Origin: a virus
Virus record (IMG/VR): IMGVR_UViG_3300000255_000004
Coordinates: 737-42,109 of that record
Reading direction: 5' to 3' (one strand)
Length of the DNA stretch: 41,373 bases
Shown here piece after piece: positions 1,157 through 41,373 of this stretch. The translations under genes were made by a program, and so were the position numbers. Under the pieces are notes generated by a model. It saw only the letters and a list, made by a program, of their open reading frames with translations, was not told where the DNA came from and searched no databases. The number at the start of each line of letters is the position of its first letter. Position 1 is the stretch's first letter.

Positions 1157-1160
1157 GAGA
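1155..1160 (+). promoter_or_regulatory. Ribosome binding site deciding a TTG start
   Basis: AGGAGA overlaps the TAG stop of the hub gene (1154-1156) and sits 6 bases before the TTG at 1167. The ATG at 1160 and the GTG at 1162 are in other frames and stop within a few codons. TTG is therefore the best start for the spike gene. Confidence 0.7.
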
Positions 1161-1166
1161 TGTGGG

Positions 1167-2018: not shown

Positions 2019-2022
2019 AAAT

Positions 2023-2463
2023 ATGTCATATCATAACACAACAGATGGGAAGTCTTCATTTTGGAAAGATGTTGATTTAACTTTCTCAAAAAACACAGAA
2101 CATAATGGATTAAATACTATAGGGGATATTACTATATTAGAAGGTACTGGTGCCATGACACAATCCTTATCTAATATAATTTTAACAATAGCAGCTGAAC
2201 GTGTATTTGATTCTTCCTTTGGATCTAATGTTTCTGATTTGATGTTTGGGAGTATGGCGGATCAATTAAGAATTGAATTGATAATTAAAGGTATGATTAA
2301 ACAATTAGGTTTAAAAGAGACTCGCATAGAGGTACAAGAAATGTCATTATCAGAATCCGATTCGGTAGATGGTGGGATGGAAGTTAATATACAATATAGA
2401 ACATTATCCTCAAGTAGTGATAATGTATTTTCTACTACAATTTCATTATATAGAGTAAGATAG
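2023..2463 (+). CDS. 25: Baseplate wedge subunit gp25 (GPW/gp25 family)
   Basis: Small wedge protein that in T4-like tails clamps the wedge to the sheath and hub and helps start sheath assembly. The length, 146 residues, fits the family (T4 gp25 is 132). The core starts at DITILEGTGAMTQSLSNII and runs through ERVFDSSFGSNVSDLMFG, matching the conserved gp25 segment in which a positively charged residue precedes a short loop ending in FG. Then follow a helix (LRIELIIKGMIKQLG) and a terminal pair of strands ending ISLYRVR. It sits immediately between spike and gp6, the order found in many T4 relatives. ATG at 2023 follows the previous stop by four bases with no clear ribosome binding site, so translation is probably coupled. 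Confidence 0.9.
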   Translation: MSYHNTTDGKSSFWKDVDLTFSKNTEHNGLNTIGDITILEGTGAMTQSLSNIILTIAAERVFDSSFGSNVSDLMFGSMADQLRIELIIKGMIKQLGLKETRIEVQEMSLSESDSVDGGMEVNIQYRTLSSSSDNVFSTTISLYRVR

Positions 2464-2465
2464 AT

Positions 2466-17700: not shown

Positions 17701-20700
17701 TATGGAGTAGATTTGTATTCTTCTGATCCGAGTGATGGGAACCCTTCTTATATTACCGATAATACGTTAATAGATGCATCTGGAAATCGTATTACTATGG
17801 AACATGTTCAATTGAAACATTCTGATGTTGTTAAAACGACTATATATGACACAAGTACAGAGGTTTCACTGGATGGAAGTAATAATACGGTACAGGTAAT
17901 AAATATTGTATATAGAGTAGATTTAGATGGTACTATGATGTTTATACATAACATGACTGCTGAACATTTTAAATTTGCTGCCGATGCGTGGGCATATTTT
18001 GAAAGGGTAGGTATGGCTCCGTGGGAAGAAAATTTACAAACAACTAATGTAACTGATAATCCATTTTTTGAAGACATGACATCACGATATGAACAGAATG
18101 GCAACATGTATGACAATAGTGGTACTGTGGCGTGGGATAATACGGCAGCTGCTGACGGTAATGGTATTATAACAGGTACTGAAAGACAACTTTTTAGTAT
18201 ATATGATGTAAGTGATAATTATACATTAGATGGTGGTCAACGTGATGGATTAATAGACATTGCAACAGTAAGTGTTAAACGTGGAAGGAGTCCGGTTAAA
18301 GGTAGGATGGTGGTTATTTATGATTACTATTCACATGGTGTTGGTGATTATGCTACAGTAGATTCATATATTAATACCGACTATGATGAAATACCAGAAT
18401 ATAAAGGCATTCGGTTATCTGGATACATGGATTTTAGACCAGCGTCTACCTTTACCAAGATATCCAATTCAATACTTGCCAAAGGATCAGTGTTTGATCA
18501 TACGGGTGGAATCAAATATCCTTTAAATAGATCTAGTATCATTACAGACTATCGTTTATATTTAAGAAGAAGAGATAAAATATATTTAACGGGTGATGGT
18601 ATGTTTAATATTCAATATGGTAACGCATCAGTAAGACCATCATATCCAACTAATTTTGTTGATGGAATGTTATTGTATAAGCTTGAAGCGACTGAATATA
18701 CATCATCTGCTAAAGATGTAGATTATATTGCGGTAGATAATCAGTTATATAAGATGGATGATATTCGTAAATTAGAAACTCGTATATCAAATTTAGAATA
18801 TTATACAAGTTTGAGTTTATTAGAAAAAGAAACAAGTGATATGACAATAACTGATGCCAATGGTAATAATAGATTTAAAAATGGATTTTTAGTAGAACCA
18901 TTTCTAGGACATAATATTGGTGATATAAAGGATGTTAATTATCAATGTTCTATAGATTATGCGGGTGGTGTATTACGTCCAAAATTTTCTGAAAGTAATG
19001 TTAATTTTGAATTAAATGTACCCGATTCAAGTCATTATACAATTAAAGATGGACTTATCATGTTGCCTTATGGTGAGGAAAAAATAATCACTCAACCAAA
19101 ATCATCAAAAACTGTTAATGTGAATCCATATGCCGTATTTACCTTTAGGGGGGGAATTGTTTTAAATCCGCCAAATGATAATTGGAGAGATGTCAACCGA
19201 TCGCCAGATGTTACAATAAAACGTGATGAATATGCACAATTTGCTGCGACTGTTGAACAATCAGGAGTTCTTGGTACAAAATGGGGTGAAATTATAGATT
19301 CGTGGACAACAAGGGAATCTTCTGGTCAAGTAGGTCCAACACAAACTGAACAAATAAGAGGGGCAGGCAACGGTGGATGGGGCATAAGGAGAATTACGTT
19401 TCAAGATACGTATGAAGCGGTTACTGAGCATGAGAGACAGTCCGGTGTTATTACTAGTCTCCAAGAAAATATAAAGACAGAAAGACTTGGTGATAAAGTA
19501 ATAGATACCACAATCGTCCCATTTATTAGGTCTAGACCTATAATGTTTAAAGCTGATGCGATGAAACCGAATACTAAATTATATGCGTTTTTTGATGGGA
19601 AAAATGTTACTGAGTATTGTTCTACTGCGACTTCTATTGTTATGAATAATTTATCTAATACATATAGTTCTACTACTGAATTTGTTAATGATACCATTAT
19701 TAATAATAAAATTAAAAATAATGTGAGATTAGTATTGCAGGGTGCAAGTAGTAATTATAGAACAAGAATATTAGGACTTATATATTCATCGGCTACTGAT
19801 GTTGAATTTATAGTAATAGATAACATACCTCAGAGTAATACTGAGTATATTGTTGGTGAGGATTTAATGATAGTTTCAATCGGTGGTGATTTTAGTTCTC
19901 AGAATGTTGGGAAGTATTCTTATAAAAAAGGAAGTATATCATCGTTAACTACTAGTAATGCTGGAGAGTTAGTAGGTTTTTTTGAAATTCCAAATACTGA
20001 TAGTATTAGGTTCCGTTGTGGTTCACGAGATTTTAGATTAACTGATCAAAAAAACAATTCATCTGATGCTGGGACATCTGCTGAAAGTACATATAGTGCA
20101 TCTGGAATTATTAGCAATGTTCAAGATACTATAGTGCAGACTAGGACGGCGCAAATAGTAAAAACTAATACAACTAGGGATACTTCTACCACAGATACTG
20201 TGTATTCTGGGAGAGTTACAATAGCTGATACTGGTTGGTACGATCCACTAGCACAAACAATAGAAGTTAAACCAGATAATGGTATGTTTGTTAGTTCAGT
20301 TGATTTATTTTTCTCGACTAAGCCGGTTGATACTGCACCACAAATACCAGTAAGACTTCAAATCAGAGATACGGTTGCTGGATTTCCTGGGCAAACTTTG
20401 TTGGGGAATCAATGTGTAGTATCTGCCGATAAAATTAATATTTCGGATGATGGGTCAGTTGCAACAAATTTTAGATTTGATTATCCTGTTCATTTAAAAC
20501 ACGGAAAGGAATATTGTATTGTAATACTTGCGGATACTCAAGATTATCGTTGTCATGTATCTAGATTGGGTGAAGAATCATTAGATGGTACTGGTGTTAT
20601 ATCAAAACAACCATATGCTGGTGTATTTTTTAAATCACAAAACGCATCAACGTGGACTGCGGATCAAATGGAAGATTTAAAGTTTAGTATATATAGAGCT

Positions 20701-21969
20701 AAATTTGATATTACTAAACCAGGGAAATTACTTTTTAACAATACTTTTAGTGATATTAATGGATATGACATAAATTCTGTTATGTTGGGCGAACTTAGTG
20801 TAGAACTTACTCCTAATTCTAGTATGGTTACATTTCATGTCAACAATCATCATTTAGTTTCAGAAGTGTATAAAAGTAGGAGTTTAGTTGCAATAACTGG
20901 TATTAGATCTGACTCTAGATATGGAGGTGATAATGATGCAGTATCTATCTTGGGTTCTCATTTAAATGGAGTTCATACAGTAGTATCCACTACATTAGAT
21001 ACATTTACTATAGATATTAGTAGAGAAAAGTATAATTGGTATCATCCAGATGATGGGACTATTTCTGGTATGATACGTGGCAATAAGGTAAGCGGTACTG
21101 GGGTAACACCAATAAATGGTGGATTATTTACACCACAATCTGAACATGGTTATGATAAAGCAAGAGTATATATTAATTTAACTTATGATATTATGTATCC
21201 ATCTATTACCGATTTGATATTTAATAATACTTCTCTTTCATATAGTATTAAAACAACGAGTGGTACATCTCAACATTCTACTAATTTGCCAGGAATTCCA
21301 GATAGTGTATTTTCTCCAATAATTCCAGATGGTGGCGGAATTTCTTTTGATACTACTAGAACATCATTCTCATATGAGAATGAATATTTTTTCGGCAATA
21401 ATCCTTCATTAGAACTTGTTTCTACACTTTCATCAAACAATGATTACCTTTCCCCAATAATCGATTATAAACGATGTTCTGCCATATTACAATCTAATAG
21501 AGTGAATTATCCAGATTGGAATGTAGATCCTGTTACATTAGACGAAATAGGACATGATACCTTTTCGTGGAATTATGTTGCAAACAATGGGTTTGTATCA
21601 GAATTAGAAAGTAGTGGTGGGTCGTGTGATTGTCGGTATATTACTAAAGAGGTGGTATTGAATGATGCATCAAGTTCTTTAAAAATAACGATAAGTGTTT
21701 ATAAACCATTTGGGTCTGATGTTGCTGTTTATTATAAAACAAAAACAACAGACACAGTAGAATATAGAAGTCTAAAGTATATTAGAGTACCAAATACTAG
21801 GGAATATAATGATATGGTGTCTGTATCAGAAAATGAATGGTTTGAATTTGAATTTGATGTGAATGATATTGATGATTTTATTTCATTTGGAGTGAAGTTA
21901 GTATTACGTGCAAATAATTCTTCAAGTATCCCTATGGTTAAAGATTTAAGAGTTATAGCTACTGCGTAA
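14758..21969 (+). CDS. DUF4815-type giant baseplate/tail structural protein (gp9/gp10 position)
   Basis: A 2403-residue virion protein following gp8, where T4 places gp9 and gp10. It probably forms the outer baseplate and the fibre attachment platform, which is inferred from position. Recognised family patterns are the N-terminus NTLPYHNDY with FKPGYAIQGREL (about 5-38), the DUF4815 signature; LEYYTSLSLLEKE (about 1346-1358); and RFKNGFLVEPFLGHNIGD (about 1372-1389). Farther on are GWYDPLAQTIEV (about 1826) and a late stretch with HLKHGKEYCIVILADTQDY then FFKSQNASTWT, all seen in long structural proteins of cyanophage-like myoviruses. A Cys-pair insertion (GEC then QCESQLGHTW) occurs at about 150-186. 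The 58-base gap before it is AT-rich, with no clear ribosome binding site, terminator or other gene. The end abuts a small gene five bases later. Confidence 0.83.
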   Translation: MSINLNTLPYHNDYKSTDGFLKVLFKPGYAIQGRELIEIQSILQNQISSLSDHLFKDGSIVIPGQSSVDVNVDYIKIRSTGIEGGTETYNTVYDFLGRILVKTPLEGYPTSDDGIMAKVIHVEQGIEGDDRYVDTLFLKYIAGSTLINNGECKNDVGSPAVTSLGSPLYPTQGQCESQLGHTWNALSIDFVNEYNHTSVLDTILEYEVDKNGVETEVPKSNFQCEIMEEGVYSKGKSSLAHIDAGIYYINGNMVAVHEQTISLDWYSNRPTYKIGLRVKEEIVTVYDDSSLYDNAQGSPNFNAPGADRYKVSLVFEKVDYNLNTSDDFIQLISINDGQIERILNRTDYALISEIMALRTYEQSGNFTVKSFSLDIREYFDEFDNNGVKTIEDIAFRTNLAAMEFVETYFKHTDMYDDLNEVGYVHNVTIPDTELFPEQNLIVSGEVFYPGKTHSQMMRIFRDHLAVGMENGIAYVKGNRITSNTTVFIPYKRATEAIQRNSAYLTYNSGKYIYVSDINGLPRINSSINLFNTMIIGKISKFGIRRLADDTNGVQEITDMKSDDNTITNGNLYNWRNLTLHDASYDPDDNSQNINTYRVDIVGTARIKSVEFVQGNQSGIINNGMGVDGSNISTPTGDTKTSGIFKICIYDLQYNDRYGSTGSKYNASDIRSMGGSNIDGSANTIESSWSFCANVLHEYKLSSTGVGSVTVKPTSAKTMVFAAHEGNTKTRGIVYQQVGTTILVKHTGSSLYEDTTTVSNSTFKSGGYILSVVYNSGLGGTFDIENTALLETLNGGRILSATTVHDDGGSGLVDFETPFIKTVRHVDDVSGSTTIDTSYTYQQEYINQSTTSDDGVVYQIKIILPATSFDRFMPYNSSMVMVYTSGTTSTTGQCHVVESAGYIVSSDSTELTIKSDTFTATGLYNVILPLIKTEAIEKTKTKRIGQVYLPFTFVKKDGDSVSPPTQYYELITEPVATVVSASYGVDLYSSDPSDGNPSYITDNTLIDASGNRITMEHVQLKHSDVVKTTIYDTSTEVSLDGSNNTVQVINIVYRVDLDGTMMFIHNMTAEHFKFAADAWAYFERVGMAPWEENLQTTNVTDNPFFEDMTSRYEQNGNMYDNSGTVAWDNTAAADGNGIITGTERQLFSIYDVSDNYTLDGGQRDGLIDIATVSVKRGRSPVKGRMVVIYDYYSHGVGDYATVDSYINTDYDEIPEYKGIRLSGYMDFRPASTFTKISNSILAKGSVFDHTGGIKYPLNRSSIITDYRLYLRRRDKIYLTGDGMFNIQYGNASVRPSYPTNFVDGMLLYKLEATEYTSSAKDVDYIAVDNQLYKMDDIRKLETRISNLEYYTSLSLLEKETSDMTITDANGNNRFKNGFLVEPFLGHNIGDIKDVNYQCSIDYAGGVLRPKFSESNVNFELNVPDSSHYTIKDGLIMLPYGEEKIITQPKSSKTVNVNPYAVFTFRGGIVLNPPNDNWRDVNRSPDVTIKRDEYAQFAATVEQSGVLGTKWGEIIDSWTTRESSGQVGPTQTEQIRGAGNGGWGIRRITFQDTYEAVTEHERQSGVITSLQENIKTERLGDKVIDTTIVPFIRSRPIMFKADAMKPNTKLYAFFDGKNVTEYCSTATSIVMNNLSNTYSSTTEFVNDTIINNKIKNNVRLVLQGASSNYRTRILGLIYSSATDVEFIVIDNIPQSNTEYIVGEDLMIVSIGGDFSSQNVGKYSYKKGSISSLTTSNAGELVGFFEIPNTDSIRFRCGSRDFRLTDQKNNSSDAGTSAESTYSASGIISNVQDTIVQTRTAQIVKTNTTRDTSTTDTVYSGRVTIADTGWYDPLAQTIEVKPDNGMFVSSVDLFFSTKPVDTAPQIPVRLQIRDTVAGFPGQTLLGNQCVVSADKINISDDGSVATNFRFDYPVHLKHGKEYCIVILADTQDYRCHVSRLGEESLDGTGVISKQPYAGVFFKSQNASTWTADQMEDLKFSIYRAKFDITKPGKLLFNNTFSDINGYDINSVMLGELSVELTPNSSMVTFHVNNHHLVSEVYKSRSLVAITGIRSDSRYGGDNDAVSILGSHLNGVHTVVSTTLDTFTIDISREKYNWYHPDDGTISGMIRGNKVSGTGVTPINGGLFTPQSEHGYDKARVYINLTYDIMYPSITDLIFNNTSLSYSIKTTSGTSQHSTNLPGIPDSVFSPIIPDGGGISFDTTRTSFSYENEYFFGNNPSLELVSTLSSNNDYLSPIIDYKRCSAILQSNRVNYPDWNVDPVTLDEIGHDTFSWNYVANNGFVSELESSGGSCDCRYITKEVVLNDASSSLKITISVYKPFGSDVAVYYKTKTTDTVEYRSLKYIRVPNTREYNDMVSVSENEWFEFEFDVNDIDDFISFGVKLVLRANNSSSIPMVKDLRVIATA

Positions 21970-27762: not shown

Positions 27763-30105
27763 ATGCCACATATTAGCGGATTAACAGGTGGGGGTACTAC
27801 GATTGAAGTATCTGCCCTACATAATTATGGGATATCACGACAGCGTAGTGGGTTTAGTAGTTTCACAGAGGAAGCTGTATTTGGTGACATTGATATGATG
27901 CAAGTAGGTTCTGGTTTATTGCACGCTCTTGCCACCGATTTAACACGTGTATGGCCATTGTATTATGGAACTCAAATCCCACTAAATACTGCTGCTGAAG
28001 TACAAATAACAAAATCATTTTTTAGTGAAGTGAATATAAATGATGTGAAGTATACGGGTAGTGCTAATTATTGTGACAGTAATTTTGGTAATCTATTAGG
28101 TTCTAATAAATATCAACACGTTCTTTTAGTAGAAACTACCAATGAAATAGAACCGAATGCCAAAGTTAATAGTGGTATTTCTCAGAAATATAGAATTAGG
28201 TTTGAATTTGATGAAAGAGAACGATTATATAGTCAAGATCCTGAATTTAAAAGAGAATTATTTCAGTTAAATAGACGTAGACAAAATAAAGGATTGACAA
28301 TATATGCTACTGGTAATAAAGTAAATGAAGTTGATTTAGATCTTTATGGTAATAATGTTATAGGTGATGATTATACCGAATCTATGGAAGGACATCCAGG
28401 ATATCGTTGGATGGGTGCAGTTGATTCTGGGGTGGTTGCTCCTGGCTCACAACCGGATGTTAATGATTCTGATGATTGGTATTTGGGAGAAACATTAAGA
28501 AAGACATTTAAAATCAATGGTAAGTTAAGTGGGAATGATTCTGTTAGGATACAAGTATCATCAATAAAACAGAACGTAGGTTATGATTTATTGATGGATC
28601 ATACATCAACATTAGTTACTTGTGTTTCATCTAGTGGTGATGGTGATGTTGATGCTTCGGCTGAGACAATTGTTTCTGCATTAAATAATGATGATACTTT
28701 TAAATTATATTTTACTGCTTCTACCGATAGTGTAATGGGTAATAGAATTTATATTGAAAATCAAGTTCCATATACATCGGTTCATGTTACTGTAGAATAT
28801 GTTCCTGATCCGAATGGTGGCAGTACTATTGCTGGATACGCAGCGACTGCGGAACTGTTAGATGATGTGGATGGTGCAGTCACAGGGACGGTGTCTCCTG
28901 GTTGGGCATCATATGGTGTGACAGGCAGGACAGGTTTCCAAAATGGTTATGTTGGTATACCAAACCCAATGTATGGGTGGTTAAAGGTAAATATTGCAAC
29001 TTCATTGCAATTGACGGATTCTGGCAGCATAGTGATGTCAGAATCTGTTACATTTGATGAGTTATCACATGCTGGTGGCGGTGTTTATGTTGATGGGTCG
29101 GTTTTTAGAAGTCCAGGAGAATTGGTTGATATTAATTTCGAAGATAATATATTCCCATATATAAACGAAGAAGGCGGATCTCAATTAACAATAAAAGCTA
29201 GAAATAAACGAAAATTGCCTGGGTGGTTTAAACGATTTCCAAAACTAATAGATGGTGGTGCGTATCCGATGTCATATAGATTAACAATTACGGAACGTGG
29301 TATTGGTTTTTCTATATGGGATGATGCAGGGGTCGATCAAAACGATGATTATGCATGGTTTGTTTCTCAACGACTTGTTGATAATTATACTGGACAGACT
29401 AGGAGAGATCCTATATCTAATTTTCCAGTACATTGTTTATATTCTTGTTCAAGGGAGTCATTATATCCAAGTGATTTTGGAATATATTATTCTAGTGCTG
29501 CCTTGGATAGTCACGTTCCTGGTAGTCAACTGACACAAGTGCATAGATTGGGTGGGGAATCAATTGCAATCGGGTCGGATGCGTTTAGAAGTTCAACAAG
29601 TGGACAAAATGCTATAATATTATCTATACTTGATAGAGAGGATTATCTGCAAGAAGAAGAGTTATCAAAGAAAATATGGAGATTTGTTGTACGTGAATAT
29701 GACACATTTAAACCATGGGATGTTCATAAATCTGCGACTAGACATCAGACAGATAGTAATGCGGTGATAAACCCAATGGAACAATTAGCAATAACAGATG
29801 ATAATAGGTTTGTTATAACATTTCCAACTGGATTAACTACTCAAAGAGTTATGTATCCTAAAGAAGAAATTGATATGGTATGTTTTTCTTCTGCCGAAGT
29901 TGTTGCAGAAGGTTCAACAGTACCAATGAGTTCATATAATAGCGGAGCTGTTACAAATACTACCAATGAAACAGGAGAAGATCATCGTAGATATTATGGG
30001 TTAAGATCGACATTACCAAATAGTAAGGGGATGCGAGTATGCATGTTAGTATCTGGTGATTGGATATTTAATACTGATGTGAATCTAGATGTACATGGAA
30101 CTTAA
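27763..30105 (+). CDS. Virion structural protein, short paralogue of the giant neighbour
   Basis: A 780-residue protein that I do not recognise by name. The N-terminal part (SALHNYGISRQRSGF, GLLHALATDLTRVWPLYYG, EFDERERLYSQDPEF) and the block GIPNPMYGWLKVN (about 399-411) followed by LVDINFED (454-461) recur in the next gene. So does the C-terminal ~300 residues from RNKRKLPGWFKRFP (480) through PMSYRLTITERGIGF, FPVHCLYSC, KIWRFVVREYD and GMRVCML. Residues about 220-395 are an extra domain absent from the neighbour (FKINGKLSGNDSVRIQVSS, YIENQVPYTSVHVTVEY). AAGGA (27752-27756) lies 6 bases before the ATG. A peripheral baseplate or fibre-base component fits the context. Confidence 0.82.
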   Translation: MPHISGLTGGGTTIEVSALHNYGISRQRSGFSSFTEEAVFGDIDMMQVGSGLLHALATDLTRVWPLYYGTQIPLNTAAEVQITKSFFSEVNINDVKYTGSANYCDSNFGNLLGSNKYQHVLLVETTNEIEPNAKVNSGISQKYRIRFEFDERERLYSQDPEFKRELFQLNRRRQNKGLTIYATGNKVNEVDLDLYGNNVIGDDYTESMEGHPGYRWMGAVDSGVVAPGSQPDVNDSDDWYLGETLRKTFKINGKLSGNDSVRIQVSSIKQNVGYDLLMDHTSTLVTCVSSSGDGDVDASAETIVSALNNDDTFKLYFTASTDSVMGNRIYIENQVPYTSVHVTVEYVPDPNGGSTIAGYAATAELLDDVDGAVTGTVSPGWASYGVTGRTGFQNGYVGIPNPMYGWLKVNIATSLQLTDSGSIVMSESVTFDELSHAGGGVYVDGSVFRSPGELVDINFEDNIFPYINEEGGSQLTIKARNKRKLPGWFKRFPKLIDGGAYPMSYRLTITERGIGFSIWDDAGVDQNDDYAWFVSQRLVDNYTGQTRRDPISNFPVHCLYSCSRESLYPSDFGIYYSSAALDSHVPGSQLTQVHRLGGESIAIGSDAFRSSTSGQNAIILSILDREDYLQEEELSKKIWRFVVREYDTFKPWDVHKSATRHQTDSNAVINPMEQLAITDDNRFVITFPTGLTTQRVMYPKEEIDMVCFSSAEVVAEGSTVPMSSYNSGAVTNTTNETGEDHRRYYGLRSTLPNSKGMRVCMLVSGDWIFNTDVNLDVHGT

Positions 30106-30111
30106 TCCTAT

Positions 30112-33100
30112 ATGTCTGTATTTAATAATAATACAATATCACTTGATGAATTAACTCATTATGGTATATCAAATTCAAATAATGGATATGTAAGTGTTTC
30201 ATCACTGTTAATATCTTTAGTCGATGATTTGACTAAAGATTGGCAGATGTATAATGGTAATAAAGAAGAAGGTAATGAATTACGAAATATTGAAGATGAT
30301 ACTTTAATAACAAAGAAATATTTCAATCTAATATATCCAGCAACTGGATATGACGGTACTGCCAATTTTACTAATATTGTTGACGGTGACTTTAAACAAC
30401 ATGTTATTGTCTTAGAATCTACAGATGAAATGATGTTCGGTCAAGTCTGGCGAATGCGATTAGAATTTGATGAAAGAGAACGTTTATATTTCGATGATGT
30501 AGAATTCACGGAAGAACTATATCAATTAAATCTCAAATTAGATTCCGTATTATATACAACCTATGAACTTGGTAATGTGGTATCTGATAGCAAATACAAA
30601 TCAAAAGAAAAAATAACAAATCATCCAGGATATACTTTTGACGACACTTTAACAGAGTCGTGGGAAATTAATGTCGGCATACCAAATCCAATGTACGGTT
30701 GGTTAAAAGTTAATAATGCAACGGCTTCACAATTATATAATGATGGGACTATTGGTGGTATTTATGATTATAGAGAAATCTCTAGAACACATGGACAGTT
30801 AGTAGATGTAATATATGAAGATATTTTATCATATAGACAGCCATCAACTAAAGTTAATGTGGCTCTTACTGTTGATGGGATATTACACGGAGAATCTTCA
30901 TACAATATTAATGGGGATATATTAACATTAGTTAAATCTCAACCAGACGGTGCAATAATACAGGTCAGATACGAGTCATCATTAATTGAAGATACTATAA
31001 CTGATACATTCACAAGTAATGGTGAAACAACAACATTCACATTAACAGAAAGTATATTATTAGATGAAATAAAACCAATTGCAGACACTATATATATGAT
31101 GGACACAACTGTTGCTGCAGGAAGTACTGTTGATTTTGATATTACCAATATATATAACAATAAAATAATACCATATATACAGAAATATGTATATAATGTA
31201 TTAGATAATAAAGGGTGGGAATCAATTGTAGAGGGGGAGTGGGTATATAATTCTGAATTAATAGAGTTTGTCGACGGTGGTATTAAATTAATACCCAATA
31301 TTGAAACTGTTACAGAACAACAAGAATCAATTGTTACTACTACATGGGATTTCCAAAATTCAGATGAATGGACATCATTAGATGATAAGATTGAAATTAT
31401 AAATGGTTCTATTCAATTAAAAACAGAATTAATAGAACATATGTATGCTGAATTGCAGTTGTTACCATCAACTCCTTTTAATTGGACATTTGATGACACT
31501 AATGATTGGATATATGATACCCAGAATATAGAATTTAATGATGGTACTGTTAAATTAAAACCAAGTATAACAAATATATATGAATCTCAATATGTTCCTA
31601 GAATCAATACATCATGGGATTTTAATGATGAAAATAAATGGAATTATAATACTGAATTATTAGTATTTAATAATGGAGTAGTGAAGTTAAATGGTACCTT
31701 GATAAATGTACTTGGAGAACAAGATGTTTTATCCGATGTAACATTTGATTTTAATGATAATGTACTGTGGACTAAATCTGCTGAAATGGATGTTGTGGAC
31801 GGCGTTGTCAAACTTAAAGGTGTTACAAACACAGTAACAGATTATATATATAATTCCACTCCCATTGCTTTTGATATGAGTGATGTTTCGGTTTATTATA
31901 ATGCAGACTTAATAGATCAATCTGATGATGGAATATCAATAAAGTTACAACCCACATATACTCCACAAGATACTATTGTAGACAACTTACAATGGAATAT
32001 ATTTGATGATAATATGTATTCCATTGTAAATTCTGAAAATAAATCATTAAATGTTGAAAATAATACACTGTCTACTACAACTACTTTTCATCCGAGAGTT
32101 CCAGCAATATATGGAATACCAGCAACCGCAAAAATACGACAACTTGATTCAGGAAATGGATTCCATACATGTTTAATGGATAGTGGAGAATTGTATGTTC
32201 AAGGTGTTAACAATGACGGTCAGTTAGGATTAGGACATACTGATGAGGTGACCGAGTGGATGTTATCTCTTTCTAATATACGTAAAGTTGTATGTGGAGA
32301 TAGTCATTTATTGGCAATAGGATTAAACAATAAATTATATGCAACTGGAAACAATACATGGTGTCAACTTGGAAAGGATTTTGGATTTGATACGAATGAT
32401 GTAGGTGATAAATCGTATTATTCTATTGATAATTGGAGATTAAGTCATGATGGACCTATAAAAGATGTATGGGCTGGTGGGAATTCTAGTATTATAAGTT
32501 TGGCAGGACAAACAGCTAATACCATGTACTGGTCTGGTGAAAACAGAGATAATCAATTATCAGTTTCAAAATCGCATGATAGAAAGTCATGGTGGTCAGG
32601 TGTCGATCAAGAATACAAATATAGAGAATTTGTTACTGGTGGTTGGTTGAGTTGGGACAGTAATTGTCGTGGGATTTACTCAGATGACCCAGATTATATA
32701 TCTCTTAGTAATGATGTAAGTAATCCGGCGACTTGGTGGTTAGGAACTATTAAAGGATACCAAGAAATATTTAGAATGGGGAAAACTCATACACATACGT
32801 ATAGAAAAAATAAAGATTCTAATAATCAAAATATACCATTCAGTGATTATTTTAAAATAGATAAAAGTGATAGATCTTTAGAGGATTTAACAGAAAACGA
32901 ACCTATATTGTTTATGTCTGGATCGTCCGATGATGTAATAGTTGGTCACAATACAAAAGGTATTAGTTGGAGATTGGCAAATAGGTATAAGTCAGAAGTC
33001 TTGTATGATGTGGCAACTACAAGATATCTTCAAAAAACATATGAACATGTGTCTATTGACAACGGTATTACTTCAACCGGTAATACAGTAAGTACATATA

Positions 33101-36100
33101 AAGGAATCGCAGCATTTAAAAATGCATCTTTAAAAAACGCTCCATTTGCAACTTATTGGAATAATGTTACAAAGCCACCAACACAACATTCACAAAGTCA
33201 GAGTGCAGAGTCGTTCAACGCATCGCGCACATACACCTTTGAAGTTAGCTTTACTAATCCTACTGTGTTGTCTGGATTAATTTTTAAGTATGATTTGAAA
33301 GACACGTATAAAGTATCACCGGTGTATACTCCACACGGGGGTAATAATTCTACGTGGTATATTTATGGGAAGGATGGCAATACATTCTCCGCCAAGCAAA
33401 CCGGATATTTTTTAAGATATGATGTAAAAAGAGTCGTTGATAGATCGTATTCTGTATCTACTAGTGGTGTATGGACCGGTAAATTTCGTAAAAAGACTAT
33501 ATACAATTGTGGTTGGAAATACTGTTATGTCAGCTACAACGTTAATTACGGTAATCAAACGTGTCCAGCGGTTGATTCGAATGGTTACCAGACAGGTGGG
33601 ACTATCGTCGGTAATAGTTCTTGGAAATCTTGCGGTCGATCACATGGAGTTAAGGAGTATGGATACGATTTCTATAAGACTGCAAAAACAGATGCTGGTG
33701 TATATAATTTGAAAAATGGCACTTACTCTAGGCATCCGTATTCATTTCTTTATACTTATAGTGACACTAGGACTAGTGTTACTACAACTATAAGGACATG
33801 GGAACATGTGGTTGAGTTAAAGTGGGATAATATTAATGCTCATAAGACATTTCACATTGAAACTATGACAGGATTGGATTTAAGCAAAGTAAGTAATAAT
33901 TCCTCACAGATAAAGGAAATAGTTGGAGTTATAACTAAAGGTGGTTATCACATAGATACATCATATGACCCAGTAGAATGCATTAAGTCATCATCATTAT
34001 ATAATGTTATTATATATAAATCGGGGAAGATAGAACTAAGAGATAAGAACAATCCTAACGATATATCTTATACAGGAACATCTGTGGGTGAGTCTGTGGA
34101 ATATATTGGAAATTATGTGAGTGTTGGTAAAGATAGTATAATGTGGTACAATTCAACTGATACTAACTTTAAATTACAAACAACTAACTTAGTTGATGTT
34201 GATACGCCAATGTATGTTTATCCTGAATATACTGCACCAGTACCAGAATATGTAGACTATGATACTTCATTAACTGTTGAATCAATATCCCCAATATCAA
34301 TGGGATCCGGGGATCATCAAGAGTTATTTACTGATGAATTTATTATAACATTAGAACCAAATGAATCTATCGATGTAACATTATCTCATGATCATAATGA
34401 CTATCTTGGACAACTTTTAACACAAGTTAGTGTAATGAATCCAGTAGAAACGTCTACAACATGGGGTGGTATTGGTGTATTGGATACTACTAGTTTTGAT
34501 AAAACAAATGGTATAGCGGGGGTGTTAAATAGATTACAGTTAGATAGAGATACAAGTAATGAGTCTACCTTTCAATTAACAAATGTGGTTGATATATCAT
34601 GTGGGGATAGTCATTGTCTTGCTCTATTGGACACTGGTGAAGTATATGGTATTGGTGACAATTCAAAGTTACAGTTAGGTGGTTTAAGCGAAGGCGGGTC
34701 GTACAATGAGTGGACGAAATTGGATATTAGAGTTGCTGCAGAGGATCCCGCTCTTATTGCAAAAGATGTGGTATGTGGTTATAATAGAAGTGCGATAATA
34801 TTAGAAAATGATGATTTATTGGTTTGTGGAGAACGTGGTCTTGACTACATGGGTGTAGGACAAGAAATATGGTTGGAGGAAGAGGGTACTGGCAACCCAT
34901 GGGTTGCTGTTGGAAAGGAAATTCCTAATATATTTTGGCGATTCAGTAGTATATCAAATGTGAAATCAATAGCTTTTGGTAAGCGTTTTTCCATGGTGGT
35001 GAAACATGATGGTACTGTATGGGCTACTGGATCCGGCAATCATTTGGGCACGACTTCAACTGGTAGAAGATCTAGTAGAGATTGGGTTCAATCTAATATA
35101 ACAGCAGTAGACTATGTAATATGTGGAGATCATTATGCCATATCTGTTAAATCTGACGGAACAATGTACGTTACCGGTGCTGACAATCCTGGTTATGGAA
35201 CACATTTTTTACCAGTGTGGACGAACGCTGGAGGTTTAAGTTCTATGGGTGTTTCAGGATACGAGTTCAACATGAATTGGTATGAGATGTCGGGTACTTT
35301 TGGTCCTAGTACGTTAGCAAAGGTAGTATGTGGCAAAGAACACACAATGACATTAGGAACTGATGGGTTTGTACGAGGTACTGGTCAAAAAATAGGTTCT
35401 AGTTCTAGAGGACAATTAGGATACCCCATAGGGGTATCCCCATTAAATGGTTCTTCTAGTACCCGCGGGTGGGGATTGCTGGGGTTTGTACTTTCAGATA
35501 TAACAGATGTAATAGACATAGAATGTGGTGCATATTCTACTTATGCTCTTAAGAAGGATGGTAGCATATGGGCATGTGGTTGGAATACCACTGGTGAGTT
35601 GGGGGTTGGAAACAATATCGAAATACACTATGGACCAAATCTCTGGCGTAGAATAAGTGTTGAAAGTTCCTTGCTTGGAACCATAGGGTTGCCGATAGGG
35701 TCATATAATGGTAAATTAAACTACATCAGTATTGATCATATGTTTACTGACGATACTCACAATAATCTTATTACTAAAATATATTTTGCACATCCTATTC
35801 CTAATTTAAGACGAATATATGTTTTATTTAATGGTGTATTACAAAAGAAAACAGGATATAGTTTTGAAGATGTTCCTCCTGGGTTAACCCATCAAGTTGA
35901 CGGTGTTGATGTTCCAGTAGAATATATTTTAGTAGTAGAAGGTTACTATCCGTGGTTCAACTCATCAACTCCGATAGAGATATATGAATACTCCTTTATA
36001 TCTCCTGGTGATTATTTTAATTATTGGTTAGTGGCAAATGACCGTGATAGATCTCGTTTTGCATCTGACCCACTGGATGTAAAGGGATTGTTAGATGGTT

Positions 36101-39100
36101 TCTGTCAACTCGGAGTTGGACCTTCTGATAATAGTAATAATGTTGCCATTTTGTATGCAGGGATTTCGGGGATTTCAAACGGCGAGGGCGTCAGTAAATT
36201 TGTTTTTACTGGGGGTATTACTGGAACATATAATCCATATTATTTGTCTGGTATAACCGAATCTACTCAATCCATATTACTAGATAATGTTTTTTATATT
36301 GAATCATTATCGTTTATTGAGGAAATTAAACCAACTAATACTAATATAAAATATGCCCTGTCGTTTGATAATGGATATACATGGAATACTCCAACAAATT
36401 CTGATATTGATATAACCACCCATGGTGTAGATGCAGATGTTATAATGGATTATGATTTTAATACGATTCCGTCATCAGCGACAACGTTAGACATACAGAT
36501 GTATTTTACTACGGAAGATGACGATATTACACCAAGTGTTCGTGATATTAAGTTTAACGTAAAACCTTTTACATTTTCACAAAAACAAAATATTTTGGGG
36601 GATGATGTAACGTTAATAACAAGTGGAACTAATATTGTCTCAATAAAAAATAATACTATTCATAAAGAATCATATAAGATAATTACATCTTATATAACAC
36701 AACAAGTTTCAGATGTGACACGCAGTGTGCCGACATCTATTGTAATAGATGATACAGTTCCTGACGGCACTACTATATTATATAGTTTAAGTTTTGATAA
36801 TAAAGACAACTGGACAACTGCGAATAATTCCACTGATATGAATACTTTTGATTTTACTAGTTATACAGTTGATGATATATATCTTAAAATTACGATGACG
36901 GCAACTGGCGATGTAACTCCAACGATTAATTTAATATCACTTAAACTGACTAATACTTTAGATGTCTTTGTCAAAGATATATATCCTAGTGAAACTATAA
37001 TAGGGATTAAAAAAACGGGAATAAGTAGTCTGTTAAATACCGATAATCTTAATGATGTGAGAGATATATCAATCAATGCAACAACCCCAACTGGTACTAG
37101 TATAGAATATTATGGAGATTTTTCTACTGATCCTACAACTCAACAACCAATTTCTACCGCCAGTAATTTATCACCAGTAGTTGTAAATGGTGATACATTT
37201 TATTTAATTATAAAACTCAAAACGACTGATGATGCTATAACTCCAACCATTGAAAATGTGTCATTTGATTTACATGAGAAAGACGTTCCATATATACATG
37301 ATGTAGATATATACAGTACTGATCCTAATATTGTTAATAATATGAGTTATGTTCCAATAGATGTATCTAAAATCACTTCTATTGAACACGTTGTATTGAC
37401 ACATGATATACCAGATAATACTTCTATAAAATTTAAAATTGACATAGATGGTGTTGAATCAACATATGATACTGTTGAAATGTTTTCTTATTATTTAAAA
37501 AGTGATACATTTATTGCTGATATTTCGGGTAAAACTGAGATGATAATTGGCATAGAGTTATCATCAACGTCTGAAAGAATAAGTCCGTCAATATCATCTA
37601 TGATATTAAATATTAATGAATCTTATGATATTATTGTAAGCACACATATTGATTATAAAACGAATGGAGTTATGTATACCAATAATACCATTGACATATT
37701 AGATATGTCATCCATTGAAAGTGTTTTGATTAATGAACATAATCCATTAGAAACCGATGTCAGATATTCAGTATCATTTGATGGTAAAGATACTTGGGAA
37801 CACGGCAACGGTAGTGATTTCACTGGCGGTTATAGTTTATCTGAATTGAATAACTTTTTAGTAGGAAGTGATATAGAAAATAAGAATAATCTTGACATTG
37901 CTATTTGTTTAATTAGTAGTGATGATGGTACAATTAGTCCAAGTGTATCTTCTTTAATATTAAATATGACTGAAAAATTTAATATTATTATTAATACACC
38001 AACATCATATCCAGAACATGGATATGTGCAGACAAATATATCTATATCTTTACATGATATAGAATCAATTGATAATGTTATTGTTGATGAAACTGTACCA
38101 TTAACTACTGATATAAAATATGTCATTTCTACCGACTCTAGAAATGATTGGGTTACTCAATCAGGATCAGTTAATGTATCACAAATATCCAATGTTATTA
38201 ATAATGGTATGACTTCTACTGAATTTATAACTTATTTAAAATCATCTGATTTTAAAAATGTGTTAGGTACGGATAATGGACAGACATTAGATATTATGGC
38301 TGTGCTTATTAGTCATGATAACATTTATACTCCATCATTGTTTGGTATAACATTAGAAGTTAGTAAAATGACACAAGTTGTAGAAAGTACGACAATAGAA
38401 TATGACACATTAAGTGCCGACAATTATATAACTTCTGATGCAATTCCATTGTCAAGTGCATATATAATATCAATTGATAGCATAGTAATTGATGAAACTA
38501 TACCAACGGGTACTAGTATAAAGTATGGGGTTTCTACCAATGGTACTGATTTCGTATATAGAAACGATTCGAATGAATTATCTTCTTATATAACTGGATT
38601 GTCAATAAATAATATAGAATCTTTATATATTCAATTAAATATATCAACTACTGATACTGGACTCACACCTTTTGTGAATTCAATAACGTTGAATTCGACA
38701 GATTCAAGAGAGGTTGTGATTGACTCGGTAGAAACATATAATACTAATAATAGTAGTAGTATTATATCTGATTTTATATTATTGGATGATAGACCGTCTA
38801 GTGATGAGTATACGATTGGTGTTCACAAAATAAAAACAATTACAATTAATGAAACTAAACCTACTGGTACAGATATAAAGTATTCTGCAAAATTTAGTGA
38901 AAATGGTTCGTGGGAAATATCTACTGGTGATATATCTGATGTTGAGTATGGACACTCTTCTGATGACTTTAAAACTTGGATAGAAAATAAAGATTTTGAT
39001 GGAATAAACACTATGTCTATTGGGATACATTTAATGTCAAATGATGACGGTACGGCAACACCAAGTGTTGGTTCAATCATATTAGATATATTAGATATTG

Positions 39101-40140
39101 GCGAATATGTATCTATAAATAATGGTGTAGATGATACATTTGATTTGTTTATGTCTGGCACCAATAAGGTATCTTTAAAAAACAATGAAATAATAGATAA
39201 TAAATATAACATAGAAGTGAAATATTATGAGCCATATAATATTGATAGATCATATAGAGTAAGAAATAAGAGAAGAGGGAGAGGTTGGTTTAAACGATAT
39301 CCTAAAAACATACCAGATATATCAGGAACATATCCAATGTCATATAGATTAACTATGACTAATCATGGAATGGGATTATATATTGGACACGAAACCTTAT
39401 CGGTGGATTCTAATGATTCATCTTGGTTTTCGGTGCAGTTGACTGTAGATAATATTACTGGACTACCTATAACGGGTGGTAATTATGTATTTGATACTCA
39501 TCCTGTTCATTGTTTATATTCTTGTACTGATGAACATATATATCCGGCAGATTATGGTATATATTATTCAGAATCTTCTCGTAATTTACAAACTTTTGAT
39601 TCTGAAATAACAGAATTGCAAGATTCTTATGGAAATTCATATTCATTATCAGAAACGGGGATTTTAAATACATCTGGTAATGTGGTTTCATTAGTATATA
39701 AACCAGATTTAGAAGATACGTTAATTTCTGATTCGATGGAACCTAAAATCTGGAGATATGTTGTCAGAGAAAGTGATATGGAAACCCCGTGGAATATTCA
39801 TATTTTGGCAACCAAAAATAATGTTGATAGTGATGCCATAATCAACAGCTTGGAACAACAGGTTATAACCAAAGACAACAAGTACATAATCAATTTTCCA
39901 TCCAATTTAACAGGCACTCGGTGTGTTTACCCAAACGAAGATTTGGATATTTTTGCGTATACTTCAGCATCGGTTGTGTCTGAGAGTAGTATTGAACCGA
40001 TTGTCCGTTATAAGTATGATGGTACGAATGATGACACTCGGCATTACGTTGGGTTGAAATCATTGTCACACGGCAACGGAATGCGGATACTTATGTTGAG
40101 TAATTCGGTGTATATACTCAACAGCGATATAAATATATAG
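30112..40140 (+). CDS. Giant 3342-residue virion protein with RCC1-like propeller and Ig-like repeats
   Basis: The largest gene of the window, an uninterrupted frame. Residues 1-237 and 3051-3342 match the preceding 780-residue protein (EFDERERLYFDDVEF, GIPNPMYGWLKVN, LVDVIYED; then GWFKRYP, PMSYRLTMTNHGMGL, HPVHCLYSCT). Between them lie about 2,813 residues. In order these are short repeats with a W-x-F...W...G-x-v-K-L pattern (about 364-657), three RCC1-like repeats (674-830), an insertion with four cysteines and a beta-rich region (830-1490), six more RCC1-like repeats (1490-1836), a linker, and eight Ig-like repeats (about 2057-2997). RCC1 folds are seven-bladed propellers best known from eukaryotes but also found in bacteria. 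Here it is probably a display or binding module on the tail. No signal peptide, membrane segment or enzyme motif was found. No ribosome binding site is evident. It starts six bases after the previous gene. Confidence 0.85.
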   Translation: MSVFNNNTISLDELTHYGISNSNNGYVSVSSLLISLVDDLTKDWQMYNGNKEEGNELRNIEDDTLITKKYFNLIYPATGYDGTANFTNIVDGDFKQHVIVLESTDEMMFGQVWRMRLEFDERERLYFDDVEFTEELYQLNLKLDSVLYTTYELGNVVSDSKYKSKEKITNHPGYTFDDTLTESWEINVGIPNPMYGWLKVNNATASQLYNDGTIGGIYDYREISRTHGQLVDVIYEDILSYRQPSTKVNVALTVDGILHGESSYNINGDILTLVKSQPDGAIIQVRYESSLIEDTITDTFTSNGETTTFTLTESILLDEIKPIADTIYMMDTTVAAGSTVDFDITNIYNNKIIPYIQKYVYNVLDNKGWESIVEGEWVYNSELIEFVDGGIKLIPNIETVTEQQESIVTTTWDFQNSDEWTSLDDKIEIINGSIQLKTELIEHMYAELQLLPSTPFNWTFDDTNDWIYDTQNIEFNDGTVKLKPSITNIYESQYVPRINTSWDFNDENKWNYNTELLVFNNGVVKLNGTLINVLGEQDVLSDVTFDFNDNVLWTKSAEMDVVDGVVKLKGVTNTVTDYIYNSTPIAFDMSDVSVYYNADLIDQSDDGISIKLQPTYTPQDTIVDNLQWNIFDDNMYSIVNSENKSLNVENNTLSTTTTFHPRVPAIYGIPATAKIRQLDSGNGFHTCLMDSGELYVQGVNNDGQLGLGHTDEVTEWMLSLSNIRKVVCGDSHLLAIGLNNKLYATGNNTWCQLGKDFGFDTNDVGDKSYYSIDNWRLSHDGPIKDVWAGGNSSIISLAGQTANTMYWSGENRDNQLSVSKSHDRKSWWSGVDQEYKYREFVTGGWLSWDSNCRGIYSDDPDYISLSNDVSNPATWWLGTIKGYQEIFRMGKTHTHTYRKNKDSNNQNIPFSDYFKIDKSDRSLEDLTENEPILFMSGSSDDVIVGHNTKGISWRLANRYKSEVLYDVATTRYLQKTYEHVSIDNGITSTGNTVSTYKGIAAFKNASLKNAPFATYWNNVTKPPTQHSQSQSAESFNASRTYTFEVSFTNPTVLSGLIFKYDLKDTYKVSPVYTPHGGNNSTWYIYGKDGNTFSAKQTGYFLRYDVKRVVDRSYSVSTSGVWTGKFRKKTIYNCGWKYCYVSYNVNYGNQTCPAVDSNGYQTGGTIVGNSSWKSCGRSHGVKEYGYDFYKTAKTDAGVYNLKNGTYSRHPYSFLYTYSDTRTSVTTTIRTWEHVVELKWDNINAHKTFHIETMTGLDLSKVSNNSSQIKEIVGVITKGGYHIDTSYDPVECIKSSSLYNVIIYKSGKIELRDKNNPNDISYTGTSVGESVEYIGNYVSVGKDSIMWYNSTDTNFKLQTTNLVDVDTPMYVYPEYTAPVPEYVDYDTSLTVESISPISMGSGDHQELFTDEFIITLEPNESIDVTLSHDHNDYLGQLLTQVSVMNPVETSTTWGGIGVLDTTSFDKTNGIAGVLNRLQLDRDTSNESTFQLTNVVDISCGDSHCLALLDTGEVYGIGDNSKLQLGGLSEGGSYNEWTKLDIRVAAEDPALIAKDVVCGYNRSAIILENDDLLVCGERGLDYMGVGQEIWLEEEGTGNPWVAVGKEIPNIFWRFSSISNVKSIAFGKRFSMVVKHDGTVWATGSGNHLGTTSTGRRSSRDWVQSNITAVDYVICGDHYAISVKSDGTMYVTGADNPGYGTHFLPVWTNAGGLSSMGVSGYEFNMNWYEMSGTFGPSTLAKVVCGKEHTMTLGTDGFVRGTGQKIGSSSRGQLGYPIGVSPLNGSSSTRGWGLLGFVLSDITDVIDIECGAYSTYALKKDGSIWACGWNTTGELGVGNNIEIHYGPNLWRRISVESSLLGTIGLPIGSYNGKLNYISIDHMFTDDTHNNLITKIYFAHPIPNLRRIYVLFNGVLQKKTGYSFEDVPPGLTHQVDGVDVPVEYILVVEGYYPWFNSSTPIEIYEYSFISPGDYFNYWLVANDRDRSRFASDPLDVKGLLDGFCQLGVGPSDNSNNVAILYAGISGISNGEGVSKFVFTGGITGTYNPYYLSGITESTQSILLDNVFYIESLSFIEEIKPTNTNIKYALSFDNGYTWNTPTNSDIDITTHGVDADVIMDYDFNTIPSSATTLDIQMYFTTEDDDITPSVRDIKFNVKPFTFSQKQNILGDDVTLITSGTNIVSIKNNTIHKESYKIITSYITQQVSDVTRSVPTSIVIDDTVPDGTTILYSLSFDNKDNWTTANNSTDMNTFDFTSYTVDDIYLKITMTATGDVTPTINLISLKLTNTLDVFVKDIYPSETIIGIKKTGISSLLNTDNLNDVRDISINATTPTGTSIEYYGDFSTDPTTQQPISTASNLSPVVVNGDTFYLIIKLKTTDDAITPTIENVSFDLHEKDVPYIHDVDIYSTDPNIVNNMSYVPIDVSKITSIEHVVLTHDIPDNTSIKFKIDIDGVESTYDTVEMFSYYLKSDTFIADISGKTEMIIGIELSSTSERISPSISSMILNINESYDIIVSTHIDYKTNGVMYTNNTIDILDMSSIESVLINEHNPLETDVRYSVSFDGKDTWEHGNGSDFTGGYSLSELNNFLVGSDIENKNNLDIAICLISSDDGTISPSVSSLILNMTEKFNIIINTPTSYPEHGYVQTNISISLHDIESIDNVIVDETVPLTTDIKYVISTDSRNDWVTQSGSVNVSQISNVINNGMTSTEFITYLKSSDFKNVLGTDNGQTLDIMAVLISHDNIYTPSLFGITLEVSKMTQVVESTTIEYDTLSADNYITSDAIPLSSAYIISIDSIVIDETIPTGTSIKYGVSTNGTDFVYRNDSNELSSYITGLSINNIESLYIQLNISTTDTGLTPFVNSITLNSTDSREVVIDSVETYNTNNSSSIISDFILLDDRPSSDEYTIGVHKIKTITINETKPTGTDIKYSAKFSENGSWEISTGDISDVEYGHSSDDFKTWIENKDFDGINTMSIGIHLMSNDDGTATPSVGSIILDILDIGEYVSINNGVDDTFDLFMSGTNKVSLKNNEIIDNKYNIEVKYYEPYNIDRSYRVRNKRRGRGWFKRYPKNIPDISGTYPMSYRLTMTNHGMGLYIGHETLSVDSNDSSWFSVQLTVDNITGLPITGGNYVFDTHPVHCLYSCTDEHIYPADYGIYYSESSRNLQTFDSEITELQDSYGNSYSLSETGILNTSGNVVSLVYKPDLEDTLISDSMEPKIWRYVVRESDMETPWNIHILATKNNVDSDAIINSLEQQVITKDNKYIINFPSNLTGTRCVYPNEDLDIFAYTSASVVSESSIEPIVRYKYDGTNDDTRHYVGLKSLSHGNGMRILMLSNSVYILNSDINI
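31201..32080 (+). repeat. Short W/F-rich repeats in the giant protein
   Basis: Five to seven units of about 40-55 residues share a pattern like WDFNDENKWNYNTE followed by a hydrophobic strand and DG.VKLK. The clearest are at about 31330-31430, 31480-31580, 31610-31700 and 31735-31830. The last two of the run are degenerate. Confidence 0.7.
32131..35620 (+). other. RCC1-like repeat region, split by an insertion
   Basis: Nine repeats are visible by pattern (hydrophobic strand, CG..H..al..dG.ly..G.n..gQLG). The first three lie at 32131-32600 (GNGFHTCLMDSGELYVQG, VVCGDSHLLAIG, WAGGNSSIIS). The other six lie at about 34586-35620 (ISCGDSHCLALLDTGEVYG, VVCGYNRSAII, FGKRFSMVVKHDGTVWATG, VICGDHYAIS, VVCGKEHTMTLG, IECGAYSTYALKKDGSIWA). 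About 660 residues separate the groups and include two weak, degenerate repeat-like stretches near 33980-34150. Confidence 0.75.
35419..35439 (+). repeat. Perfect 9-bp inverted repeat with 3-base loop
   Basis: GGATACCCC, loop ATA, then GGGGTATCC. It lies in frame between the last two RCC1-like repeats. Two further palindromes follow within 31 bases (35440-35450 and ACCCGCGGGT at 35461-35470). Confidence 0.8.
36280..39100 (+). repeat. Eight Ig-like repeats in the giant protein
   Basis: Each unit of roughly 80-130 residues begins with a pattern like I.tI.I.ET.PTGT.IKY..SFDg...W and ends L.I...L.S.D...TPSV.SI.L. Clear starts are near 36300, 36730, 37060, 37380, 37715, 38065, 38480 and 38835. 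The protein match is good but the DNA differs between units, so the expansion is old. Confidence 0.75.
40128..40135 (+). promoter_or_regulatory. Candidate T4-type late promoter box, upstream copy
   Basis: Exact TATAAATA, overlapping the last codons and stop region of the giant gene, 54 bases before the next ATG at 40189. TATAAATA is the T4 late promoter -10 consensus. A chance match is possible in AT-rich DNA. Confidence 0.4.
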
Positions 40141-40188: not shown

Positions 40189-41373
40189 ATGCCTTTATCA
40201 AGCGGTTACAGCATACAAAGGAATGAGATAATAACTATTCCACACAAAATACAAACTGAAATTCATGTTGGCGTTGGTGAAACCATTTTGCCTTTGCATG
40301 GGAAAATAGATTTTTCTGATAAGTCATGGGATTGGAATATTACGGTAAATGGAACTCAATATTTGCTGGATAGGACGTTAGGTAATAATTTCCAAAATGC
40401 TACTGATCCTGTTGTTGCCAGTCAAATCGTTAGTATTGATGAAGAAAAAAGGTATTGGGATAGCGACCAATCTTCTGAAATATATACGGAAGGTGATCAT
40501 GTTGAAAGTGGGATAGTTTCGTTTGAACAAACTATTGGTTCATTTGGTGGACTTAGATTTAAAAATGGGTATCATCCGGCTCAAGGCGAACACATAGAAA
40601 TTGAATATCGTATACATCAAGAACAATGGTCATCTTCTAGTGGCGGGTTGTTATATCAATTAGCTAAGGATTTGTGTGTAAACCCATATGATTCTCCTGA
40701 AATAAAACAAATTAGTCCTAATAACTTTGTAGCCGAGTCAAACGATAATACATCTGCTAGAAAGGGTTTCGTTAAATTGTTCGCCCATGGAGTATCTGTG
40801 ATCGGTGATTGGAGTGATACTACACTACACCAATTTAAATTGACTGTTAATGGCGAAGAAGTGACAGTGACTGAAGGTGCTGTAGGAGATTGGGCAAGTA
40901 GTTTTGGTGATATTGATGCCAAAACACTTGAAATTTGTGGTAAAATTCAATCTTCAATAACTACAGCTCTATCTGCTAACTCGATGGATGGTGTATCTGT
41001 ATTGATTAATAGTGCATCCGATCAAGTTAATGATGGTGTGGTGTTTTTTGTTGAACACGATTTAGCACCATTAGTATCTGTAGTTTGGGATCCCATATCG
41101 ACTAACAGTGCCGGTCCTAACGATCCACCCGAATTTGATGTCACTACTATCTTTACTTTTGAAGATTTTACTGGTTATCAATCTATTTCATTTGTTGAAT
41201 CGTCTACTGGGAAATTTGTAGTGCCGTTGAATCCCAACGGATTTCTTGATGATGCTGCGGTTGGTGGTTCTGGTATTTATCAACGAAGAGTTAAAACTAT
41301 AACACCGGCTTCATCGGAGGCTCCATATAATGTTGGATTATGGAAATTAAAAAGACAAGATTCATTGAAGTTT
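40189..41373 (+). CDS. Unrecognised virion protein, 3' end beyond the window
   Basis: An open frame of 395 codons with no stop before the window ends. The start is firm: ATG behind AGGAG and a TATAAATA box. I do not recognise the family. The first 150 residues look beta-rich (KIDFSDKSWDWNITVNGTQY, GIVSFEQTIGSFGGLRFKNG). GGLLYQLAKDL at about 149-159 resembles GLLHALATDL and SLLISLVDDL in the two preceding proteins. A later stretch (FKLTVNGEEVTVTEG, SSITTALSANSMDGVSVLI, VVFFVEH) loosely parallels the extra domain of the 780-residue protein. It is therefore possibly a third, divergent member of the same set of tail proteins. That link is weak and by eye. Confidence 0.75.
   Translation, partial: MPLSSGYSIQRNEIITIPHKIQTEIHVGVGETILPLHGKIDFSDKSWDWNITVNGTQYLLDRTLGNNFQNATDPVVASQIVSIDEEKRYWDSDQSSEIYTEGDHVESGIVSFEQTIGSFGGLRFKNGYHPAQGEHIEIEYRIHQEQWSSSSGGLLYQLAKDLCVNPYDSPEIKQISPNNFVAESNDNTSARKGFVKLFAHGVSVIGDWSDTTLHQFKLTVNGEEVTVTEGAVGDWASSFGDIDAKTLEICGKIQSSITTALSANSMDGVSVLINSASDQVNDGVVFFVEHDLAPLVSVVWDPISTNSAGPNDPPEFDVTTIFTFEDFTGYQSISFVESSTGKFVVPLNPNGFLDDAAVGGSGIYQRRVKTITPASSEAPYNVGLWKLKRQDSLKF

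Follow-up and report, generated by a model that had tools for sequence, protein, structure and literature searches.

Cores of phage structural proteins are known to accept inserted domains, as in the I-domains of the HK97 fold and the sheath domains of T4 gp18, where one to a few hundred residues are added, and conventional tail fibres such as T4 gp37 are fixed to the particle at one end and carry the tip at the opposite end. In combining a modular stalk with a binding head, T4 gp37 and the receptor-binding proteins of the phi11 type are comparable to the giant protein described below, and the phi11 protein is reported to include a propeller (PMC4901313). Anchor domains common to several virion proteins (families a, b and c) have been proposed for Bacillus phage 0305phi8-36; the resemblance to the present proteins, which is one of description only, lies in a repeated virion-anchoring domain combined with other modules, but there the modules are described as fused to the anchor and loop insertion is not described (PMC2147016). 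RCC1-type modules also occur in proteins of the large phages phAPEC6, 121Q and GAP32, some of them virion-associated, but their propeller is not described as a loop insertion (PMC7247149, PMC5259590) and our framework search gave no match in these three phages. A homologous framework was found in jumbo-myophage proteins of PHROG 12249 (PaBG gp261 and proteins of NCTB, Lu11, HRDY3, Erwinia and Dickeya phages and Agrobacterium phage Atu_ph07), the C-terminal part being approximately 25-45% identical. Like the genes described here, these are often arranged in tandem beside tail genes; they encode 330-400 aa without large cargo at the site termed B below and are named 'tail sheath' or hypothetical.

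The window, i.e. the whole stretch of DNA analysed, covers approximately 41 kb of a virus record that is 42,109 bases long. It contains two adjoining open ORFs, separated by six bases, for a short (S) and a giant (G) protein, with the following features:

1167-27452, plus strand: baseplate setting upstream of S and G, from Pfam and PHROG matches
27763-30105, plus strand: short paralog S, 780 aa, consisting of the scaffold with additional residues inserted at site A and an 18-residue site B
28405-28950, plus strand: site A insertion of S, approximately residues 215-396
29146-29199, plus strand: site B of S, residues 462-479, 18 aa
30112-40140, plus strand: giant paralog G, 3,342 aa
30112-30822, plus strand: N part of the G scaffold, residues 1-237
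30823-39261, plus strand: site B cargo of G, residues 238-3050 (2,813 aa), inserted where one predicted beta-hairpin turns
30823-32031, plus strand: outgoing part of the cargo, residues 238-640
32056-32583, plus strand: first putative RCC1-type beta-propeller stretch, residues 649-824 (PF25390, PF00415)
33427-33801, plus strand: putatively replaced patch, residues 1106-1230
34552-35811, plus strand: second putative RCC1-type beta-propeller, approximately residues 1481-1900
36262-39090, plus strand: returning part with eight predicted beta-sandwich repeats, approximately residues 2051-2993
39262-40137, plus strand: C part of the G scaffold, residues 3051-3342
40189-41373, plus strand: beginning of a third paralog, T, truncated where the window ends

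The upstream region encodes a baseplate hub/lysozyme-type protein, baseplate wedge proteins of the gp25, gp6 and gp8 types, a phrog_358 protein, a Gp10_C collar fibre and a second fibre-like protein.

A preliminary description of this DNA had proposed that S and G have common N- and C-terminal ends, and BLASTP bore this out with three collinear blocks: S 13-214 versus G 8-174 (31%, E 2e-21), S 397-461 versus G 188-237 (46%, E 3e-11) and S 478-775 versus G 3049-3342 (41% over 308 columns, E 3e-67). A whole-protein MAFFT alignment of the two spreads S across the cargo and was set aside. For S and G, the distance between the LVDxxFED and RNKR motifs had been given as 18 and 2,813 residues, and a recount yielded exactly these values (462-479 and 238-3050, respectively). 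S itself also carries cargo, since approximately 180 additional residues lie between HPGY and GIPNP; this site A insertion is missing from G and from S proteins beyond close relatives.

To place the two proteins in a family, viral contigs were scanned first with S (16 loci) and then with the aligned sequences of the last conserved block (61 loci), and the framework was located within these loci by a profile of S-type proteins. S and G are both matched by phrog_12249 (7e-50 and 4e-36), and its matches extend to T and to a fifth paralog. Across jumbo myophages the short form is widely distributed: a minimal form of approximately 323-402 aa is present in PaBG, Lu11, HRDY3, NCTB and Erwinia and Dickeya phages in one to five copies per phage, mainly in tandem. 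A second layer consists of contigs of up to 204 kb, mostly partial, which encode S (582-785 aa), followed by T and Q (1,049-1,629 aa), and, approximately 11-20 kb distant, a fifth paralog of approximately 1,300-2,000 aa, in which approximately 900-1,080 residues precede an uninterrupted C part (e.g. L067:6350-10390 and L070:5702-10435). The group to which the window belongs comprises S, G, T and Q, with T and Q reaching 1,682-2,024 aa in two relatives; in the T ortholog of contig L011 the scaffold blocks begin at residue 687. Contigs from two other metagenome data sets (L010 and L011) exhibit the same two-gene order; their giants are uninterrupted and measure 3,398 and 2,481 aa, which brings the giants known to three in total.

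In the arrays of two further contigs, L058 and L059, the gene in second position occupies the same slot as G and encodes only 539 and 550 aa. In a framework tree rooted at midpoint these two proteins and the three giants formed one group (100% support) separate from every S, and G thus has natural cargo-free orthologs. A short site B is also found in many S proteins and in the minimal form, which together with these orthologs suggests that the short state may be ancestral. Among the S proteins of the close relatives L058 (320-2803) and L059 (8651-10414), site B measures 254 and 18 residues, a difference of approximately 236.

The preliminary description had asked for other members with differing cargo at the same point and for a structure in which both ends form one fold. 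Site B was found to range from 14 residues (cargo-free G) and 16-18 (several S) through 86-92, 99-100, 185-196 and 254 to 1,948, 2,805 and 2,813. By BLASTP, the giant cargo and the groups of 86-92, 99-196 and 254 residues did not match one another, so that site B has received at least four mutually unmatched cargo groups, in addition to one nested case. The latter is the 185-196 group, which equals the 99-100 group with approximately 90 residues inside, i.e. an insertion within an insertion; the nested residues are present in the S proteins L037:8069-10423, L050:8078-10432 and L053:8081-10426, and the un-nested cargo of approximately 100 residues in those of L019, L041, L043 and L047.

The cargo-free G ortholog of L059, which contains both ends, was modelled with 84 family rows as one confident molecule (mean pLDDT 79.6, pTM 0.84) with the insertion point at a turn. 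Site B maps in this model to the turn formed by residues 246-253, with strand 238-245 before it and strand 254-261 after it; the pairing of these two strands was read from strand order and the short turn. The model is 60% coil, and location in a loop is therefore by itself weak evidence; the stronger point is that site B is predicted to lie exactly between two conserved successive strands. That the two ends of G fold jointly, as those of the L059 ortholog are predicted to do, rests on this ortholog. A sequence-profile search of the PDB with the framework gave no match, and Foldseek gave none better than E 0.22 against the PDB; against viral models the good matches were to the family's own phages or to uncharacterised phage proteins, the others being weak.

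The preliminary reading of a common scaffold with one filled loop thus held with respect to the scaffold and to site B, but not with respect to a single loop, as several loops tolerate insertions. The tandem paralogs place large cargo at a loop other than site B: in T and Q, site C contains 400-900 residues, and it corresponds to the low-confidence stretch 343-407 of the L059 model. Site D (after residue 504) corresponds to a turn between strands 494-500 and 508-517 of the same model, and the L010 giant (L010:12368-22564) has 64 additional residues in a loop of the N part (approximately residues 90-157) that are absent from the window giant. Compared with the I-domains of the HK97 fold and with T4 gp18, the insertions described here reach 2,813 residues, occupy several sites, can be nested and occur in tandem paralogs. 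The preliminary description knew of no example of this exact architecture, and our literature search likewise found no description of it, although its restriction to open-licence papers makes this weak evidence.

Closer examination of the G cargo revealed a modular composition. The outgoing part (238-640) contains repeated short tryptophan-rich units of the W.F.D...W......GG.VKL type and is 45% identical to that of the L011 giant. Pfam assigned only RCC1 families to G, apart from one sub-threshold chance match, and no family to S; the RCC1 models exceeded their curated cut-offs (PF25390 189 bits versus 150, PF13540 111 versus 22, PF00415 56 versus 21.7), and the propeller repeats are predicted at residues 649-824 and again at approximately 1481-1900. 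Residues 961-1330 had been read by eye as discoidin-like; Pfam gave no support for this, and the idea was dropped. The eight returning repeats (approximately 2051-2993) measure approximately 105-130 aa each; a single-repeat model computed from 20 repeats reached pLDDT 85 and pTM 0.82, and its comparison with solved structures by Foldseek yielded only weak beta-sandwich matches (E 0.14 and above). When phage records were searched with the cargo, the second propeller matched RCC1-type proteins of unrelated phages and the repeats matched nothing. In the L011 giant the second propeller is missing and the outgoing part, a single propeller stretch and the repeats are retained, which indicates that the cargo changes by modules.

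Framework and cargo were also found to differ in selection when the window was compared with L010, the closest giant. The dN/dS ratio was 0.13 in the N part and 0.06 in the C part of the G framework and 0.69 in the cargo without the patch described below (Fisher P 6e-16 for cargo versus framework, from counts of nonsynonymous and synonymous changes). Four neighbouring tail genes ranged from 0.23 to 0.29, while S exhibited 0.39 in its framework and 1.08 in the site A insertion. The ends of G are thus under strong purifying selection and the cargo is not. The low C-part ratio is aided by a high dS, yet the dN of this part (0.018) is one third of that of the cargo (0.056). Within the cargo, a patch of 125 residues (1106-1230) is only approximately 25% identical to L010 between flanks of approximately 90%, with synonymous sites saturated, and fits replacement by recombination. 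Residues 1681-2280, a segment picked after looking, gave a dN/dS of 1.77 (P 0.025), so that a ratio above 1 is only suggestive there. Over the last 100 codons of G (39832-40137) dS was approximately 0.72 at a protein identity of approximately 95%, which suggests a recombination boundary at the 3' end; recombination would then touch the framework too, and the ratios lack one uniform history.

PaBG_00261, a distant family member, was equated by its number with gp261, which published mass spectrometry places among the Coomassie-visible bands of purified PaBG particles (PMC7412058, Table 1), and it is on this band together with the baseplate gene neighbourhood that virion membership of the family rests. 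Taking all of this together, S and G probably belong to a single paralogous family of virion proteins, found in large phages with contractile tails, in which an anchor would display host-facing modules. A compact framework of approximately 330-550 residues would attach each protein to the particle, probably in the vicinity of the baseplate or lower tail, and several of its surface loops accept very large in-frame insertions. In G, one beta-hairpin turn would open into the 2,813-residue arm, in the order of outward repeats, two RCC1-type propeller stretches flanking the fast-changing patch, and eight beta-sandwich repeats leading back. Both ends of the arm would rejoin the same hairpin, giving a fibre tethered at two ends with its tip in mid-chain, and the arm most likely shows binding modules to the host surface. 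The common framework, the cargo-free orthologs, the insertion point in one turn, its repeated use by unrelated cargo, the use of other loops in paralogs and the contrast in selection are computational results, from which we infer the place on the particle, the role in adsorption and the physical shape of the arm; display of the cargo to the host is supported indirectly by the dN/dS values. Both ends of G lie in the anchor and the tip would be in mid-chain, in contrast to T4 gp37 and the phi11-type proteins. More tentatively, and with slightly more doubt than conviction, we suggest that G is indeed such a double-tethered fibre and that the family forms a general display framework with multiple sockets, in which the insertions themselves also receive modules.

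Several other readings have to be weighed against that of an anchor with a host-facing arm. The cargo could be a passive spacer, could serve as a shield, for instance to ward off host defences or to stabilise the particle, or could act inside the cell, with propellers that do not bind the host surface. A function in DNA packing has been proposed for the RCC1-type proteins of phAPEC6 (PMC7247149), and RCC1-type domains can bind many partners, so that a role in adsorption does not follow specifically from their presence; raised dN/dS and a replaced patch, on the other hand, would be expected where a partner changes, and the genes sit in a tail/baseplate cluster, which makes this reading rather unlikely. 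We regard it as clearly improbable that S and G share two independent clamps in place of one framework, with the N and C parts attached apart and the middle being an ordinary fibre or bridge. A bridge between tail parts would presumably conserve both ends as well, and the joint fold was modelled on an ortholog, but the two parts are only 14-18 residues apart in the cargo-free orthologs and in S, and in the ortholog model they make up a single molecule in which adjacent strands flank site B.

The remaining two readings have very little in their favour. As annotated by PHROG 12249 and RefSeq, the family would be the tail sheath, and the phrog_12249 matches of S and G agree with this; but no Pfam sheath model matched, no solved fold resembles the framework model (the best PDB hit being that at E 0.22), a separate PF17482 protein is encoded on 5/8 relatives' contigs, and NCTB, SNUABM_5 and PaBG have another sheath gene, which renders the annotation extremely improbable. 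An equally slim chance is given to a self-excising or mobile, intein-like element or an assembly artefact, which a very large in-frame insertion at a single point could bring to mind. No intein or endonuclease domain (Hint included) was detected in the cargo, the junctions ILSYRQ... and ...DRSYRVRNK lack the residues usual for intein splicing, the same layout is present on independent contigs and the cargo contains structural repeats.

Changes in how phages contact their hosts usually affect the free fibre end; in the anchor-and-arm proteins described here the anchor is constant and the host-contact part is apparently swapped inside loops. The cargo-free orthologs represent a natural empty control, and the family as a whole offers a natural set of evidently tolerant insertion points, holding 14 to 2,813 residues, in one virion protein family. 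The analysis also corrects the 'tail sheath' label on dozens of jumbo-phage records; this name looks wrong on NC_022096, NC_017972, NC_061445 and others, the phages concerned having another sheath gene.

A link to 'hairy' phages was considered but is not claimed: Y3 and Atu_ph07 are reported to be hairy and have the family, while the family search gave no match in CBB and phAPEC6, which are hairy as well. Upstream of S, cysteine motifs of the form SGSCSD...ESEC...GEW are repeated in a 2,819-aa protein (4396-12855 of the window), and a 2,403-aa protein (14758-21969) contains the similar GEC...QCES..GHTW.
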